From Kiloniella sp. EL199 (GTDB taxonomy: Bacteria > Pseudomonadota > Alphaproteobacteria > Kiloniellales > Kiloniellaceae): a DNA stretch of 64,000 nucleotides. The notes beneath the pieces are model-generated. The model was not told the origin of the DNA and searched no databases. It saw only the letters and a list, made by a program, of their open reading frames with translations. Shown here piece by piece: positions 21,927 through 56,503 of the stretch. Location of the stretch: the NCBI RefSeq assembly GCF_900313065.1, contig NZ_OMPU01000013.1, forward strand, positions 248,001 to 312,000. Direction: 5' to 3'. Made by a program: the position numbers and the translations under genes. Every line of letters starts with the position of its first letter. The stretch's first letter is position 1.

Positions 21927-22682
21927 ATGACGAATTCAGTACTGCCAATTGTTGGTGTATCTGCCTGTCTTTACAAAGCTGATACTCCCAAACCCTATCA
22001 CGCGGTTGATGATAAATATTTACGCGCTGTTGCTGTGTCCTCAAATACAATGCCGGTAATCATCCCCGCTCTTGGTAATCTGTTGGATATACCCAAGCTG
22101 GTTTCAAAGTTAGACGGTATTATGTTAACCGGCAGTGCCAGCAACGTTCACCCTGATCGCTATAATACACAGCCATCCCCCGAAGCTGAGCCCTATGATC
22201 CCATGCGTGATCAGACCACCTTTGCTTTGATTAATGAAGCCTTGAAGCAGGAGGTACCTCTTTTAGCTATCTGTAGAGGGTTTCAGGAGCTGAACGTAGC
22301 TCTGGGTGGCAGCTTGCATCCTCAGGTCAGCAAGATCCCCGGGCGCATGGACCACAGTAGTCCGGATACAAAAGACATGGATATCGATTATGGTCCTAAT
22401 CATACGATCTCTATCGCACAAAATGGATGTTTATTTAGTATCCTGAAAAGCAATGAAGCAAAGGTAAACTCACTCCATTATCAAGCCATAAATCAACTTG
22501 GCAATGGTTTGGTCGCTGATGCCATAGCCAAGGATGGAACAGTTGAAGCTATTTCCATGCCTGAACAAAATTCTTTTGTATTGGGCGTTCAATGGCATCC
22601 AGAATACAAGGCCGCAGATAACAATGTGTCAAAAGATATCTTCAAGGCTTTTGGGAACGCTGTCAGTCATAGAGTAAAATAA
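21927..22682 (+). CDS. Class I glutamine amidotransferase-like hydrolase (PuuD family)
   Basis: Gamma-glutamyl-gamma-aminobutyrate hydrolase-like enzyme of 251 residues. The nucleophile is C116 in AICRGFQE, and H224/E226 in VQWHPE complete the catalytic triad. The N-terminal part has the peptidase C26 features GIMLTGSASNVHP. PuuD frees GABA from gamma-glutamyl-GABA during putrescine breakdown; other puu genes are not present here, so the substrate could be a different gamma-glutamyl compound. It is divergent from the hydroxylase gene and followed by a 550-base gene-free stretch. Confidence 0.9.
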   Translation: MTNSVLPIVGVSACLYKADTPKPYHAVDDKYLRAVAVSSNTMPVIIPALGNLLDIPKLVSKLDGIMLTGSASNVHPDRYNTQPSPEAEPYDPMRDQTTFALINEALKQEVPLLAICRGFQELNVALGGSLHPQVSKIPGRMDHSSPDTKDMDIDYGPNHTISIAQNGCLFSILKSNEAKVNSLHYQAINQLGNGLVADAIAKDGTVEAISMPEQNSFVLGVQWHPEYKAADNNVSKDIFKAFGNAVSHRVK

Positions 22683-22900
22683 TTTCAAGTCTATATTAAC
22701 TCGCTCCAGGAAGTTTATATTACTTCAGTCTCTGACAGGCTTTCTTTTTTGCCTGTTACAAAAATCTTTATTTTCTGTGGAGTCCCTGACGATAGTTTCA
22801 ATTTTAACGACAAATTATTAATTATTACAGGAATATGTGCTTATTAGTATAAGTATATTAAGAATATAATCCTGTAACTTAAATTTTATCCACAGGTTTA

Positions 22901-22928
22901 TTGAAATCCCTACTGGATGGCTTATCTT
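22901..22928 (+). promoter_or_regulatory. Promoter of the candidate small RNA
   Basis: TTGAAA (22901-22906) and TATCTT (22923-22928) are separated by 16 bases, a reasonable sigma-70 promoter. Transcription would begin near 22935, a couple of bases before the first hairpin of the RNA. Confidence 0.5.
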
Positions 22929-22934
22929 AGAATC

Positions 22935-23060
22935 ATGTCGCCTCCTACCTCACTCATGGCGACGTTAAAGGAACTGGAATCCCCCCTCCGGTTCCTTGAA
23001 ACTCTGCGAAGAAGCGGGAACACCTGGTTAATCCCCCCAATCAGGTGTTCCTTTCTTTTA
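22935..23060 (+). ncRNA. Candidate small RNA with twin AAUCCCCCC loops
   Basis: Three hairpins in a row. Hairpin 1: stem GTCGCC (22937-22942) with GGCGAC (22958-22963) and a CCU-rich loop. Hairpin 2: a 10-bp stem (22968-22977 with 22988-22997) around the loop AATCCCCCCT. Hairpin 3: a 13-bp stem (23017-23029 with 23039-23051) around the loop AATCCCCCC, followed by TTTCTTTTATTTTT, an intrinsic terminator. No open frame fits. C-rich loops of this kind are known in alphaproteobacterial regulatory RNAs that bind Shine-Dalgarno sequences (for example the CCUCCUCCC-loop families). The loop sequence is exactly complementary to the GGGGGGATT ribosome sites of parA and yggS in this window. Expression and targets are inference. 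Confidence 0.7.
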
Positions 23061-23062
23061 TT
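23016..23062 (+). terminator. Intrinsic terminator ending the candidate small RNA
   Basis: Strong stem of 13 base pairs (one G-T pair) with a nine-base C-rich loop, directly followed by a T-rich tail. It is also hairpin 3 of the RNA. Confidence 0.85.
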
Positions 23063-23140
23063 TTTACAATCTGTATGGTAAAGTTTTTAAAGTTCTGCAT
23101 TTATAATGCTGATCTTGTTCAATCAAATCACTCTTCATTT

Positions 23141-23206
23141 CGCATTCGAAACAAAAAATAAAAATTATTCCGCATTCGAAACAAATTCATATCGAATGCG
23201 GAATAA
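23141..23206. repeat. Operator-like repeat cluster upstream of xthA
   Basis: CGCATTCGAAACAAA occurs at 23141-23155 and again at 23171-23185, exactly 30 bases apart. The second copy also forms a perfect 15-bp inverted repeat (23165-23179 with 23192-23206, TTATTCCGCATTCGA). The spacing of three helical turns and the symmetry suggest cooperative protein binding. The cluster ends 26 bases before the xthA start, so it may be its operator; the inverted repeat could also form a hairpin in RNA. Confidence 0.6.
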
Positions 23207-23232
23207 AATCATTACGTGCATGGAATAAATTT

Positions 23233-24030
23233 ATGTCCCTTCGTATTGCTACTTGGAATATCAATTCAATCAGACAACGTTTAGGTCACCTCAAAGACTT
23301 TACCGATAGCCATAATCCAGACGTTCTCTGCCTGCAAGAAACAAAGGTACAAGATAGTGAATTCCCACTATCAGATATAAAATCAATGGGTTATGAAGAA
23401 GTCTTTTTCCATGGACAAAAAAGCTATAACGGCGTTGCTATCCTGTGCAAAAACGCTGTTGAAAAAAATGAAAAAATCGTTTGGTGCGAAAAAGATGATC
23501 GCAGACATCTATCAGTTACGTTAAAAAATGGCTTGGAAGTGCATAATTTTTATGTTCCGTCAGGCGGCCCCATTCCGGATCCGGAACAAAATGATAAATT
23601 TGCTCATAAACTTCAATTCCTCAAAGAAATGGCAAAGTGGGTCAAAAATCCTGATACAAAAGAGAAAAAACTAATCCTTGTTGGCGATCTTAATGTCGCC
23701 CCATTGGAAAAGGATGTCTGGAATCACAAAAAGCTCCTAAAATCTGTTGGGCATACTCCTTTGGAGAGTGAATTGATGGCAAAACTTAGAAAATCGGGTG
23801 ATTTAATTGATGTTGGCCGTCACTTTGTTCCTGATGATCAGCCTCTCTACAGTTGGTGGGGATATCGTTATAAACCCTCTTTTGAAAAAGATTACGGCTG
23901 GCGGCTAGATCACATTCTAGCAACTCAAAGTCTGAAATCCGCTTTGAAGAATTTTGAAGTTGTCAGGCATACACGTGGTTGGGAAAAACCCTCTGATCAC
24001 GTTCCAAATATCGTGGATATTGATATCTAA
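23233..24030 (+). CDS. xthA: Exodeoxyribonuclease III
   Basis: Base-excision repair enzyme of 265 residues that cuts at abasic sites and degrades 3' ends. The endonuclease/exonuclease/phosphatase fold is complete: ATWNINSIRQRL near the N-terminus, metal ligand E36 in CLQETKVQD, GDLNVAP in the middle, SWWGYR, then WRLDHILAT and the catalytic SDHVP close to the end. The length is standard. It is preceded by the CGCATTCGAA repeat cluster, which may control it. No other repair gene is adjacent. Confidence 0.96.
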   Translation: MSLRIATWNINSIRQRLGHLKDFTDSHNPDVLCLQETKVQDSEFPLSDIKSMGYEEVFFHGQKSYNGVAILCKNAVEKNEKIVWCEKDDRRHLSVTLKNGLEVHNFYVPSGGPIPDPEQNDKFAHKLQFLKEMAKWVKNPDTKEKKLILVGDLNVAPLEKDVWNHKKLLKSVGHTPLESELMAKLRKSGDLIDVGRHFVPDDQPLYSWWGYRYKPSFEKDYGWRLDHILATQSLKSALKNFEVVRHTRGWEKPSDHVPNIVDIDI

Positions 24031-24154: not shown

Positions 24155-24619
24155 TTAACCCGTTTTTTCTGCCAATGCATTCCGAGCTTCAGTCAATTGG
24201 CTAGTCGTATGATCAATACGATGTGCCAGCACTCGCATGACCTCGACACCCATTTCCGGGAAGTCCATTACCATATTGAAAAAGAGTTCTTTGGTAATCT
24301 TTAATGTTATCAGCTCTGATTTGGCTTTAATGGTCGCTGTCCTTGGCACATCACAAAGAATTGCAATCTCGCCAACAAAATCGTTTTTCCCAAAAGAAGC
24401 AACAACAAGGGGCCCGTCATCAGTGTCAACAATGACATCCGCTTCTCCCTCGATAAAGATGTAGGCGGCATCTCCTGCATCCCCCTGATGGAAAAGCTCT
24501 TTTCCTTCTTTAAAAATCAGGCGTTCACTCGCAAAAGCCATAAGCTTTAACCTTGAGGGATCAATATTCGCAAAAAGCGGAATATTCTTTAGGGCTTCAA
24601 CTTCTTGTTCAATCGACAT
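24155..24619 (-). CDS. Cyclic nucleotide-binding domain protein
   Basis: Single-domain protein of 154 residues related to the sensor half of Crp. The beta-roll has LFHQGDAGDAAYIFIEGEADV, and the phosphate-binding cassette reads FVGEIAILCDVPRTATIKA, with the conserved glutamate and arginine that contact cyclic nucleotide. No DNA-binding domain follows; the remaining C-terminal helix (LAHRIDHTTSQLTEARNAL) is probably a coiled coil or docking helix. The gene starts 21 bases after the ABC exporter gene, so the two form an operon. It may make the exporter responsive to cAMP or cGMP; a nucleotide cyclase is encoded at 39340. That link is inference. Confidence 0.9.
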   Translation of the reverse strand: MSIEQEVEALKNIPLFANIDPSRLKLMAFASERLIFKEGKELFHQGDAGDAAYIFIEGEADVIVDTDDGPLVVASFGKNDFVGEIAILCDVPRTATIKAKSELITLKITKELFFNMVMDFPEMGVEVMRVLAHRIDHTTSQLTEARNALAEKTG

Positions 24620-24640: not shown

Positions 24641-27358
24641 TTATTCGTCATCAATAAGGCTTTTTAAAACCTTACCATCCTTGTTTAATTCGTCGAAACG
24701 ACCACTCTCGACAACTTTTCCATTCTGCATGACAATGACATATTCAAAATGTTGCGACAGACTTGCCCTTTGCAATGTCCAGCAAATCCCTCGATCTTCC
24801 TGAGCTTCCATAATAGAAGGCACCAGTCTGTTCTGGCTTTGGGAATCCATAACAGCTGCTGCTTCATTCAAAATGAGCAGATCAGGACGCTTGATCAGTG
24901 ATCGGGCCAAAGCTAGCTTTTGGCGCTGAACACTACTCAAACGATTTCCGGCAATACCGACATTAAATTCAAGTCCAACTTCTATGACTTCGGATCGCAA
25001 CCCCAGATCATCGAGAAGCTCTGTCATAACCCGACCTATTGTCGCACCTGCTTCGGCACGCCCATAAGCCAAACGACCAAAAAGGATATTATCCTGGATA
25101 CTCGCTGCAGAGTTATAATTATCGGGGTCATAAAACTCTACCGCATTCGGATCACGGCTTTCCAGCTTTTCAGCAAAGATCTTCCGGGCTTTAAGAATTT
25201 TCTCTTCAACATCTTTAGTCACAAGTCCAAGACGATGGCGAGCCTCGACATAATCGAAAGGCAGATACATCAAAGCTTCCCGGTCAGAATCCGAAATATC
25301 AGAAAAACTGCTCTTGTCCGCACGTTTAACAATTTTATCGAATTCAGGCAGATCGTCAGCGGATATAAAACTGAACTGCTCAAAGAATTGATGAGACGGT
25401 GGAAGCCCCATAAAGAGTTCAACCATCGTACGGGCAATAGAAAGGCCCATATTATAGATGCGATCTCTTAAATCTGCCTCTTCTACTGACTCCCTGAGAA
25501 TAGGCATGGCCAGTAAATTATTGCCCGCGTATTGTTTTTTACGTGGTGTACCAAACAAGAGATTTTCACGTAACGTTGCATTATTGTTATAGCTTTCGGG
25601 ATCAAAAGCGATAACGAGATCTTCCTCACCAGTCGCTTTCAGATGTTCCTTCAGCGCAATTCGTGCCCCCAGAATACTTTCCGCGATATCCGGGCGATTC
25701 TCACTGTCCACAATCCCGCTCAACCCAAAGCGGTATACATCCTCTTCCAGATCCACATGCCTTAAAACCTCTGTTACACGCGGGATCAATTCCGATGATT
25801 CACAGATCCCAGCAGAAACAAAATCAACCCATTCTCCCTTTGGGTTGAGCACTGTATTCCCCGTACGCAATGCTTCTTGCTTTTCACGAACGAATTCTGC
25901 CTCTGAATTTGGTAACCGGGACGGATCATTTATCATCCAGTTCCGCAAGCCATAAAAAAGGTTATCCATAACAGACAAGGGAAAAAGATAAGCCTCTGAC
26001 CCTACATAGGAAATGCGACGCCCGGTTATCGCCGAAGGTAACTTTGCTATCGGTTGCCCACCTATTTTAACCGATCCCGAGGACGATTTAACCAAGTTAG
26101 CCAATACAAGCCCTAAATATTCCTTACCGCTGCTTGCATTTCCAACAACTGCAATTTTTTTATCAACCCCAATGGTAAAGCTAATACCTTCCAAAAGCTT
26201 GTTTTCACTCTCGTCTATCAGGTTAAGATTGCTTGCAACGATATCCCCTGTAAGTGCAGGACTGTGTCCCTCCTCAAGGCGTTGCATTTCTGCTTCGATC
26301 ATACCACTTGGCTGAAATTGCTCTGCGACCTGCTCGTACTTGATCTGTACATCATTTCGTTGCTGATCCCAGTTAATGAGATCTTTGATAGGAGGAGGCA
26401 AATCTTTGTAAGCAGCAAGAACAGCCACAAGAGTACCAATCTCGAACTGCCCTGTAATAACCAGATATCCGCCCCCCAGGTAGAATATAAAAGGTGTTAT
26501 CTGTGCCAGTAAGTTGTTTAAAAATTTAACAAAAAACTTTCGTTGATATATTTCATATCTGATTTTGAAAATCTTACCCAACCGGCTAGATATTTCGGCA
26601 CGTTCATAATTACTGGTATCATGTGCCTGAATTTCTACAGCACCTTCGACCAGTTCACTAACGCGCCCCGCCAAGGCACGTGCCGTCATTTGACGTTGCC
26701 GCCCAAGATTTAGGATACGTTTGCGGAGTTTAGGGATAAGAAACGCCTGGACGAGAACAATACTCATGGCAACAATGCCAAGCCATACGTTCTGAACCAT
26801 AATAAAGATCAGCGCCGTAAGCGCCTGCCCACCAAGGAAGAACGGCGTTACGATAGCATCCCCGATAAACCCGCCAAGAGGTTCAACTTCATCTTTCAGC
26901 ATTGTTGCAATTTCCGCCTGCTTAACGCGGCGGCTGTGCATGACTGGGAAACGAAGAATACGATCCGTTAACTCATAACGCAGTCTTCGGAGCATCCGTT
27001 CGCCTAACCGACCTTTCAAGGTATTAATGACAAACTTAAAAAGTCCATTCACCAATACCAATCCCAGAAAAGAAAAGCATAAAGCAATTAACAAAGAGAT
27101 TTGCGTTAAATCAAAACCTTCAAACAAAACAACTGTATGGCCAAAAATTTCTTCACCAAAAGGAAGCTCAAATCGCATGAAAGACAACGTCGAATTGATG
27201 TCAGCGAAATTCTGAGAGTCAACCGCGCGATTTATGATACTTTTGGGTAAATCCAGCGAAAGGAAATAAAAGGGCATCGATGCCAACACTAGAAACAGGA
27301 TCTTTAACTGATCTTGTTTGCTATGTTTCCAAATATACTTGAAAAGTCGTTGTTCCAT
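24641..27358 (-). CDS. Unusual ABC exporter with degenerate ATPase domain and three Q-loop-like segments
   Basis: Membrane protein of 905 residues, counted from ATG 27358 (a GTG seven codons earlier is the alternative). The N-terminal ~330 residues form an ABC exporter-type membrane domain. The nucleotide-binding domain is atypical. Walker A reads GNASSGKE (406-413) with altered glycine and serine positions. Three successive segments resemble the Q-loop and following helix: YLFPLSVMDNLFYG (about 457-470), YNNNATLRENLLFG (590-603) and YNSAASIQDNILFG (748-761). The single signature is LSSVQRQ (807-813), Walker B ends LNE instead of LDE, and the H-loop histidine appears replaced. Usual half-transporters are ~600 residues, so ~300 extra residues lie between Walker A and the signature. 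It may hydrolyse ATP poorly or in a regulated way. Divergent from the glycosyltransferase operon; substrate unknown. Confidence 0.85.
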   Translation of the reverse strand: MEQRLFKYIWKHSKQDQLKILFLVLASMPFYFLSLDLPKSIINRAVDSQNFADINSTLSFMRFELPFGEEIFGHTVVLFEGFDLTQISLLIALCFSFLGLVLVNGLFKFVINTLKGRLGERMLRRLRYELTDRILRFPVMHSRRVKQAEIATMLKDEVEPLGGFIGDAIVTPFFLGGQALTALIFIMVQNVWLGIVAMSIVLVQAFLIPKLRKRILNLGRQRQMTARALAGRVSELVEGAVEIQAHDTSNYERAEISSRLGKIFKIRYEIYQRKFFVKFLNNLLAQITPFIFYLGGGYLVITGQFEIGTLVAVLAAYKDLPPPIKDLINWDQQRNDVQIKYEQVAEQFQPSGMIEAEMQRLEEGHSPALTGDIVASNLNLIDESENKLLEGISFTIGVDKKIAVVGNASSGKEYLGLVLANLVKSSSGSVKIGGQPIAKLPSAITGRRISYVGSEAYLFPLSVMDNLFYGLRNWMINDPSRLPNSEAEFVREKQEALRTGNTVLNPKGEWVDFVSAGICESSELIPRVTEVLRHVDLEEDVYRFGLSGIVDSENRPDIAESILGARIALKEHLKATGEEDLVIAFDPESYNNNATLRENLLFGTPRKKQYAGNNLLAMPILRESVEEADLRDRIYNMGLSIARTMVELFMGLPPSHQFFEQFSFISADDLPEFDKIVKRADKSSFSDISDSDREALMYLPFDYVEARHRLGLVTKDVEEKILKARKIFAEKLESRDPNAVEFYDPDNYNSAASIQDNILFGRLAYGRAEAGATIGRVMTELLDDLGLRSEVIEVGLEFNVGIAGNRLSSVQRQKLALARSLIKRPDLLILNEAAAVMDSQSQNRLVPSIMEAQEDRGICWTLQRASLSQHFEYVIVMQNGKVVESGRFDELNKDGKVLKSLIDDE

Positions 27359-27736
27359 TGCGTCCCAGATCCCCCGCACCCGGCTTTAAATGAATTAAAA
27401 CCATAGCCAATACATTTGTATTTCAAACAGGTTACAAAATAAGCCTTAAACTCTAATGAGTAAACAAACTACAAAATTTAATACTTGAGATCACCCAGCC
27501 TAGCCGAAGTACAAATCGGGGTAAACTCACAGAGATAAACACATTGTTATTCGTTGTGTAATGCTCAAAGCAAAAAACCATATTAACCTGATAAAACTGG
27601 ATATGTGGAATTATTAAGTATACCTCTCTGACAAAAGAATTTTTAATAACAAATGATTACATTAAGCTTGATTTAACCACCTAAGAAAAATTATATCAAA
27701 AAGCTCTATTCGCACATTCTTTCTTGGGTCCTGGGA
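27359..27736. promoter_or_regulatory. Divergent intergenic region, exporter versus glycosyltransferases
   Basis: About 380 AT-rich bases between the leftward ABC exporter gene and the rightward glycosyltransferase. It must carry both promoters, but no clear hexamer pair, palindrome or RNA structure stands out. GGGGGAT lies 15-21 bases upstream of the exporter ATG and overlaps part of the sequence complementary to the candidate small RNA loops. Confidence 0.5.
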
Positions 27737-47362: not shown

Positions 47363-47374
47363 CTTCAATCCCCC

Positions 47375-48190
47375 CTAAAGATAGCCAAAACGTTTCATCT
47401 GTTGGCCATGATCTTTTTCAATCTGCTTAATCTGCTTATTGGTCAGAACGGTTTTCCATTGTTCTGATTTACCTGATCGGAAAAAGCGTTCGCTATTTTT
47501 AGATTTTTCAGTGAAGCCCTGTTTTTGCTCGAGCTCCTGAAGGGTTTTAAAGGAAGAATGTTTGATCGCACGCTGGATTCTATCATCATCTCTGGTGATA
47601 CCCAACTTCTTGGAGATAGCCCCAAAAATTTCGGTTGGTTTTTCCAGCATATCTTCATATCGATGAACCAGAAGGGTTTTATGTGGAATCTGCGTCCAGG
47701 ATTTCACATGGTTAGACCAGCTATTATAAACTTCATATAGAACTTTATCAGATTTCGACGTTTCTTTCGCCATAATTTCAATAGACTCATCTATCGAAAC
47801 ACCAAAATGGTCTGCAGCGGAAATCACGACATCTCTTGGATCTCTGACTATATATATAGCAGCACCTGTTGCATCCATAGCAACAAGGGGCTTGCCAAGA
47901 TATTCGCCGAGAAAGTTATGGGTTTTGAGAATTAAGATATTTTTACTGCGTCTGGATATTTCGCGTTGAACATCTGCGCGGATATTAGCAAGATCACTTT
48001 CGCTAGCTTGTTCCAATGGTTTGTTGAAAGCATTTTTATACCAAAGGGAATTAGCTTCGCCTGAACATATTTCGCTAATTTTATTAACTGGTAATGGCTC
48101 TTTAGAATCAGAAATTAAATTCGCTAAAAAAGTACGCATCCACGTATTTCCAGATTTTGGATAAGACGCGAGCCACAAAATTCCAGGCAT
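47375..48190 (-). CDS. Sulfotransferase domain protein
   Basis: Transferase of 271 residues that would move a sulfate group from PAPS to an alcohol, amine or sugar. The 5'-phosphosulfate loop is SYPKSGNTWMRTFL at about residues 9-22. The 3'-phosphate binding region is YIVRDPRDVVISAADHFG. The C-terminal half has KTLLVHRYEDMLEKP, as in the cytosolic sulfotransferase-like family. The fold is soluble and there is no signal peptide. The acceptor is unknown; surface glycans or lipids are possible. It forms an operon with yggS, 12 bases downstream. Confidence 0.88.
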   Translation of the reverse strand: MPGILWLASYPKSGNTWMRTFLANLISDSKEPLPVNKISEICSGEANSLWYKNAFNKPLEQASESDLANIRADVQREISRRSKNILILKTHNFLGEYLGKPLVAMDATGAAIYIVRDPRDVVISAADHFGVSIDESIEIMAKETSKSDKVLYEVYNSWSNHVKSWTQIPHKTLLVHRYEDMLEKPTEIFGAISKKLGITRDDDRIQRAIKHSSFKTLQELEQKQGFTEKSKNSERFFRSGKSEQWKTVLTNKQIKQIEKDHGQQMKRFGYL

Positions 48191-55650: not shown

Positions 55651-56487
55651 CTACGCGACAGCTGGTGCTGTAATACGAACTTGTTCATTTCTAAGAATTT
55701 CCCCAGCCAGCTTGATATAGGCCTGAGATCCAGCACAGGCTACATCGTACAACAGGACCGGTTTGCCATGTGAAGGCGCCTCTGACACTCTGACATTTCG
55801 AGGAATAACTGTATTAAAAACCTTCTCTCCCAAGAAAGCCCGCACATCAGCAGCAACCATTTCACAGAGGTTATTCCTTCTGTCATACATGGTAAGGACA
55901 ACACCCTGAATTTGAAGACGACGATTAAGCCCCCTCTTCACGCGGTCAATAGTACGCAGGAGATGAGATAGTCCTTCAAGGGCATAGAACTCTGTCTGAA
56001 GAGGTACAAGAACAGCATCAGAAGCAACCAGCGCATTCAAGGTCAACAGACCAAGTGCTGGCGGGCAATCAATCAAAATGTAATCAAATTGATCCAGAAG
56101 TGGCCCAATAGCATTCACAAGTTTGAATTCGCGCTCTGCTAGACCTACGAGCTCAAGCTCAGCACCTGAAAGTTCCACACCAGAAGAAATAACATGCATC
56201 CGGGGAACATCTGTTGATCTGACGGCACGCGTAATAGGTAATCCCTCGATCATAACCTGATAAATACTTTGCTGACGGGCATCAGGCTCTACACCCAATC
56301 CTGTACTGGCATTGCCTTGAGGGTCCAGATCGATAATCAAAACCTTCTTTTTGCAAGCTGCAAGAGCAGTGGCCAAGTTTACCGTTGTTGTCGTTTTACC
56401 AACTCCACCCTTCTGATTTGCAATGGACCAGACTTTTGCTTCGCGTTTCTTTTTACTTGAAATTGAATCCATATCTTGTACTGACAT
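55651..56487 (-). CDS. parA: Chromosome partitioning ATPase ParA
   Basis: Deviant-Walker ATPase of 278 residues that positions the replication origin together with ParB. The P-loop is KGGVGKTTT near residue 25, with NQ before it. The switch regions include DLDPQGNAS and DCPPALGLLTLNAL. I take the start at ATG 56487, with a perfect GGGGGG eight bases upstream. The leader bases GGGGGGATTGATC include the 9-base complement of the candidate small RNA loops. rsmG ends 16 bases upstream. Confidence 0.97.
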   Translation of the reverse strand: MSVQDMDSISSKKKREAKVWSIANQKGGVGKTTTTVNLATALAACKKKVLIIDLDPQGNASTGLGVEPDARQQSIYQVMIEGLPITRAVRSTDVPRMHVISSGVELSGAELELVGLAEREFKLVNAIGPLLDQFDYILIDCPPALGLLTLNALVASDAVLVPLQTEFYALEGLSHLLRTIDRVKRGLNRRLQIQGVVLTMYDRRNNLCEMVAADVRAFLGEKVFNTVIPRNVRVSEAPSHGKPVLLYDVACAGSQAYIKLAGEILRNEQVRITAPAVA

Positions 56488-56503
56488 GATCAATCCCCCC
56501 AAG

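Follow-up and report, generated by a model that had tools for sequence, protein, structure and literature searches.

The window analysed here is a stretch of 64,000 nucleotides (contig C3:248001-312000) from the genome (4.18 Mb) of a marine Kiloniella. Two unrelated neighbours in conserved synteny, the gene for a C26 peptidase / glutamine amidotransferase class I (21927..22682, + strand) and the xthA gene for exodeoxyribonuclease III (23233..24030, + strand), enclose a gap in which a small RNA gene is predicted at 22935..23063 on the + strand, its ends being set from the promoter and the terminal hairpin. The sigma70-type promoter consists of a -35 element TTGAAA (22901..22906, +) and a -10 element TATCTT (22923..22928, +) with a spacer of 16, and this arrangement (22901-22928) is kept in 8/8 Kiloniella genomes, in agreement with the original prediction of an RNA with a promoter of its own. 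The three hairpins of that prediction were likewise recovered: the locus folds with a minimum free energy of -52.7 kcal/mol (z -6.6 against shuffles), and none of the shuffles of the 130-nt stretch folds equally well.

Hairpin 1 (22935..22965, +) is genus-specific and carries a 15-nt loop, CCUCCUACCUCACUC, which comes closer than the other two to an anti-Shine-Dalgarno (anti-SD) sequence and resembles that of 16S rRNA. Hairpin 2 (22968..22997, +) shows the loop AUCCCCCC with a closing A-U pair, and hairpin 3 (23016..23058, +), the most conserved element of the family, shows AAUCCCCCC. Both loops had been claimed to display one and the same motif; AATCCCCCC is indeed present twice, at 22978-22986 and 23030-23038, but the AAUCCCCCC of hairpin 2 has its first A in the closing pair, leaving 8/9 bases in the loop. 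The proposed intrinsic terminator was also upheld in part. Hairpin 3 is followed by a T-rich tail, TTTCTTTTATTTTT, but the tail is interrupted, the loop measures 9 nt and the hairpin was not listed by a consensus terminator scan, probably because the scan allows loops of at most 8 nt. Reading of the sequence and conservation make hairpin 3 the probable terminator. Between the RNA and xthA, at 23140-23230, lie nested repeats (TTCCGCATTCGAAACAAA / TTTCG..ATGGAATAA), with similar elements before xthA in other Kiloniella; they are possibly an operator or hairpins of xthA.

Conservation of the RNA within and beyond Kiloniella

The RNA is about 95% identical and occupies the same place in all eight near-complete Kiloniella genomes, while a ninth genome (77% complete) gave no match. 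The eight differ very little over the predicted transcript and some 60 bases of promoter, in contrast to the flanks, which diverge and are hard to align. With a covariance model built from the Kiloniella loci, homologs were detected in 18 of 23 genomes of the family, and the matches in other genera lie between C26 and xthA wherever the fetched DNA includes both genes. Sampling of eight families of the order showed the terminal hairpin, GGAACGCCCGG-N-CCCCCC-N-CCGGGCGTTCC, upstream of xthA in every one. A class-wide pattern search added further families, several of them with both neighbours or with C26; as these loci were picked by the terminal hairpin, independent evidence comes from their synteny and hairpin 2 only. 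Across the order and the further families of the class, the structural homologs are mostly situated in the C26-xthA gap, and a promoter motif, TTGNAN-N16-TANNN[TA], stands at equal distance upstream of hairpin 2 in homologs of many families. One single-contig genome (G025:C1) holds two copies of the stretch with the RNA and xthA, one at 27 kb and the other where the contig ends (4.6 Mb); the ends of a circular chromosome probably overlap in this assembly.

The paired structure is conserved together with the position. Among 47 distinct homologs, 93% of the cells are paired against 80% in shuffles, and the covariation score is 0.40 against 0.16 in shuffles, falling to 0.09-0.18 when the partner is slid by one column; this alignment was fitted to the model and leans towards structure. 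A plain MAFFT alignment shows double-sided changes in 11/19 pairs, and in the wider alignment 8/8 model pairs of hairpin 2 vary on both sides. The features proposed for the family, namely a position between the two genes, a covarying hairpin 2 and terminal hairpin, and both C-rich loops, are all found in the Kiloniella RNA. Conservation of loops and stems in relatives, proposed at the outset as a check on the RNA gene, is thus borne out by the covariance search with strong covariation. The locus almost certainly encodes a functional small RNA.

The conserved core of the molecule is the two C-rich loops, which nearly every homolog shows. The terminal loop of the homologs ranges from C4 to C8, and the hairpin-2 loop, usually UCCCCUG, became AAUCCCCCC in Kiloniella. 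The AAU preceding the six C's is confined to Kiloniella, and the full AAUCCCCCC in loop 3 occurs in this genome only, by one extra A; the other seven Kiloniella carry UAUCCCCCC or UACCCCCCC. Since AAU is a late addition and the C-runs are conserved, the seed core is the C-run and not AAUCCCCCC. The RNA very probably acts through its C-rich loops on G-rich leaders.

Most bacterial trans-acting small RNAs are confined to close relatives. The RNA of the C26-xthA gap keeps its place, its promoter spacing and its two C-rich loops in at least eight families of the order and in several further families of the class, and offers a testable case of an old small RNA that holds its loop core constant while the edges of the loops and the targets move.

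Predicted targets and a DnaA box beside the promoter

According to the mechanism that we propose, a trans-acting RNA of about 130 nt would start from a sigma70-type promoter of its own and terminate at hairpin 3, and its two C-rich loops, joined in Kiloniella by the anti-SD-like third, would pair with G-rich ribosome-binding sites and change the translation of several mRNAs. Most likely, a loop would nucleate pairing with the G-run of the ribosome site, and the resulting duplex would mask the SD sequence, so that translation falls.

The foremost candidate is parA (AAA_31 ParA ATPase; 55651..56487, - strand), of which the leader site TTGGGGGGATT (56492..56502, -) overlaps the SD sequence and forms an 11-base complement of loop 3. 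The predicted 11-base match between parA and hairpin 3 is thus present, as is the 9-base complement GGGGGGATT predicted in the leaders of both parA (56492-56500) and yggS (47367-47375). The parA leader directly follows the rsmG stop codon and reads TTGGGGGGATTG in 7/8 Kiloniella species, the remaining one (G008) having TTGGGGGAATTG; the parA leaders of the other genera of the family contain no such G-run (G6). Candidate partners were ranked among the genes that a simple caller predicted in 1.24 Mb of this genome (about 30%) and in 0.4 Mb of K. laminariae (9%). Within these samples parA was rank 1 as loop-3 partner, both among 1097 genes here and among about 350 in K. laminariae, and it came first for loops 2 and 3 alike among 87 ortholog pairs with matching starts.

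The second-best conserved loop-3 partner among the 87 pairs is an ABC exporter (24641-27358, - strand), which carries GGGGGAT in its leader at 27369..27375. The original prediction had treated this 7-base match before the start at 27358 as minor, yet it is kept in 7/8 Kiloniella. The exporter is a protein of 905 aa whose match to the ATPase domain is split in two (about 396-491 and 752-902), and it is followed by a small cNMP-binding protein at 24155-24619. In G008, the leaders of parA and the exporter both read GGGGGAATT instead of GGGGGAT(T), and the loops of its small RNA show no matching change.

The third site did not hold. The yggS leader contains AGGGGGGATT (47367..47376, -), complementary to loop 2, but the K. 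spongiae ortholog, 92% identical, reads TTTAGGGGAATTGGGC, and the site is absent from the yggS leaders of the other Kiloniella species. Confined to this genome, yggS was rejected as a target; true control of this gene is very unlikely, and the suggested link to PLP homeostasis fails with it.

The weight of these matches depends on chance. The whole genome holds 46 copies of the word GGGGGGATT and 12 of its reversal, and the window holds 5 where 0.6 are expected. In the 1.24-Mb sample, 3/15 copies precede a start by no more than 25 nt, where 0.11 would be expected by chance. A count in start regions, suggested for the whole genome in the original prediction and made here on this sample, thus found the word commoner near starts, but ordinary SD words are similarly enriched there (AAGGAG 12-fold, AGGAGG 15-fold), and the enrichment alone does not show targeting. 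Exact complementarity was found equally insufficient as proof by a random-flank control. When random flanks were placed around C6, the best match in this genome was equally strong 57% of the time and the conserved pair 6.8% of the time, and parA was the best conserved pair for 68% of the random flanks. By this control the conserved G6 of parA is the real signal, to which the perfect 11-mer adds little; the signal consists mostly of the conserved GGGGGG, which could persist purely as a ribosome site. Close to the end of a gene at C17:81500-82200 of the same genome (G000), GGGGGGATT and AATCCCCCC are found facing one another at a distance of 63 bases.

The same control lends weight to a reading in which the RNA serves a broad, shifting regulon, its ancestral targets being other genes, and in which parA and the exporter match only incidentally, some G-rich SD sequence being available to any C6 loop. 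The C-run loops predate the parA match, since they are kept in homologs of the family and the order and the parA leaders of other genera lack G6, and the failure of yggS to be conserved points the same way. Against it, the 87 ortholog pairs contain no better conserved loop-3 matches than the G-runs of parA and the exporter, each of which is kept in 7/8 species. We regard such a broad regulon as a serious possibility, if somewhat short of an even chance. The reading that we prefer, judged from sequence, is a new and old family of C-rich-loop trans-acting RNAs that in Kiloniella probably controls parA and the exporter, and as a whole we consider it probable. For parA by itself, conservation of the leader match in 7/8 Kiloniella counts in favour and the ease with which random flanks match equally well counts against, so that the gene is a good candidate and a plausible prediction to which we give rather less than even chances; the exporter may be a true target too, though more tentatively. 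Pairing at the parA SD sequence would most simply block binding of the 30S subunit, lowering ParA and perhaps, through the shared operon, ParB.

A perfect consensus DnaA box, TTATCCACA (22886..22894, +), precedes the -35 element by 6 nt and is identical in 8/8 Kiloniella. With 22 copies in 1.46 Mb of this genome, its chance occurrence is about 1e-3 per 60-bp stretch. Outside Kiloniella the box is not conserved, save for a looser TTTTGCACA in one sister genus, which lies further upstream at a different distance; the box was therefore rejected as a family-wide feature. Transcription of the Kiloniella RNA may respond to DnaA, although we hold this as a doubtful lead and not as a result. In a more ambitious reading, a DnaA-responsive RNA would repress parA in Kiloniella and thereby link segregation to the initiation of replication. 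The perfect box in 8/8 species and the conserved parA leader are consistent with it, but the box is absent in most families and the parA pairing is only predicted, and we consider it improbable. The full combination, an undescribed alphaproteobacterial family whose Kiloniella branch has come to be controlled by DnaA and silences parA through pairing of a loop with the SD sequence, is more improbable still; if true, a small RNA would time chromosome segregation with replication initiation.

Relation to known small RNAs

With Rfam 15, no gathering-level match was obtained in the window or in 20 related loci. The best match was a weak full-length alignment to alpha-r14 (RF02344; 26.7 bits against a cut-off of 58.8, E 0.0022). 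This alignment and the same three-hairpin layout would fit a canonical alpha-r14 (NfeR1) RNA, but the score lies far below the cut-off, the NfeR1 motif CCUCCUCCC is found in none of the three loops here, and only one of the ar14-scoring loci checked for neighbours lies in a C26-xthA gap. We rejected this assignment as most unlikely. In the homolog alignment, too, no hairpin 2 or 3 loop contains CCUCCUCCC. We find it least credible that the locus is a short protein gene or belongs to xthA as its leader or attenuator. The position of xthA downstream on the same strand and an open frame from an ATG at 22935 in this genome speak for such readings. Against them, the terminal hairpin with its T-rich tail intervenes, the distance to the xthA start is about 170 nt in this genome and reaches about 370 nt in relatives, C26 directly adjoins xthA without the RNA in some genomes, marking the RNA as a separate unit, and the coding gene is rejected since the ATG is ACG in most relatives, indels shift the frame and no conserved reading frame was found in the homolog comparison.

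Two other sets of loci carry similar loops. A second C-rich-loop hairpin, GAACAGGCCCCGGTACATCCCCCCACCGGGGCCTGTTC, is present in the same genome (L070, C19:438599-438688, - strand), just after an open frame ending ...QLGKEVEAFLSKVRVA; its score is 26.6 bits under the family model and 27.5 under that of ar14, and it is possibly a sibling or a 3'-UTR RNA. In two genomes of another family of the class (G079 and G307), tandem pairs of anti-SD-loop RNAs with CCUCCUCCC loops score near the ar14 cut-off.

A literature search, incomplete in its coverage, found no report of a small RNA at the C26-xthA locus, and four described systems invite comparison. The RNA shares with alpha-r14 / NfeR1 the general design of an alphaproteobacterial trans-acting RNA (about 123 nt in that case) with three hairpins, its own sigma70 promoter and pyrimidine-rich anti-SD loops predicted to act on ribosome sites; those of NfeR1 act on ntrB, where the SD sequence is masked (PMC10746234). 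It differs in its loops, AUCCCCCC/AAUCCCCCC and CCUCCUACC... in place of CCUCCUCCC three times, in its genomic place and in falling below the Rfam cut-off. The anti-SD-like pyrimidine core directed against many mRNAs is shared with alpha-R8 / MmgR / SisA-D (PMC12559287), but there the core, UUUCCUCCCU, is single-stranded instead of being displayed in loops, and the usual neighbour is an N-formylglutamate amidohydrolase gene. EcpR1, a cell-cycle RNA of Sinorhizobium, is likewise alphaproteobacterial and acts on dnaA and gcrA via a conserved loop (PMC4414408); it has two stem-loops, a GC-rich loop motif, a divK-pleD/rpmG locus, a distribution within Rhizobiales only and stringent-response control. 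If parA is a real target, chromosome partition would come under direct RNA control, for which EcpR1 on dnaA and gcrA is the closest precedent found.

GsrN, the general-stress RNA of Caulobacter, recognises G-rich mRNA by six tandem cytosines in a loop (PMC5869019), as loops 2 and 3 may do here. Its promoter is of the sigma-T/EcfG type, unlike the sigma70-type TTGAAA-N16-TATCTT, and it usually lies near general-stress genes (ecfG/nepR/phyR), whereas the neighbours here are the C26 peptidase and xthA. The six-C loop of GsrN activates katG (PMC5869019), whereas the SD pairing here suggests repression, and by that precedent the sign of regulation at parA is not certain. The RNA of the C26-xthA gap appears to belong to a new, old family of C-rich-loop trans-acting RNAs, which works like both NfeR1 and GsrN and is neither one.
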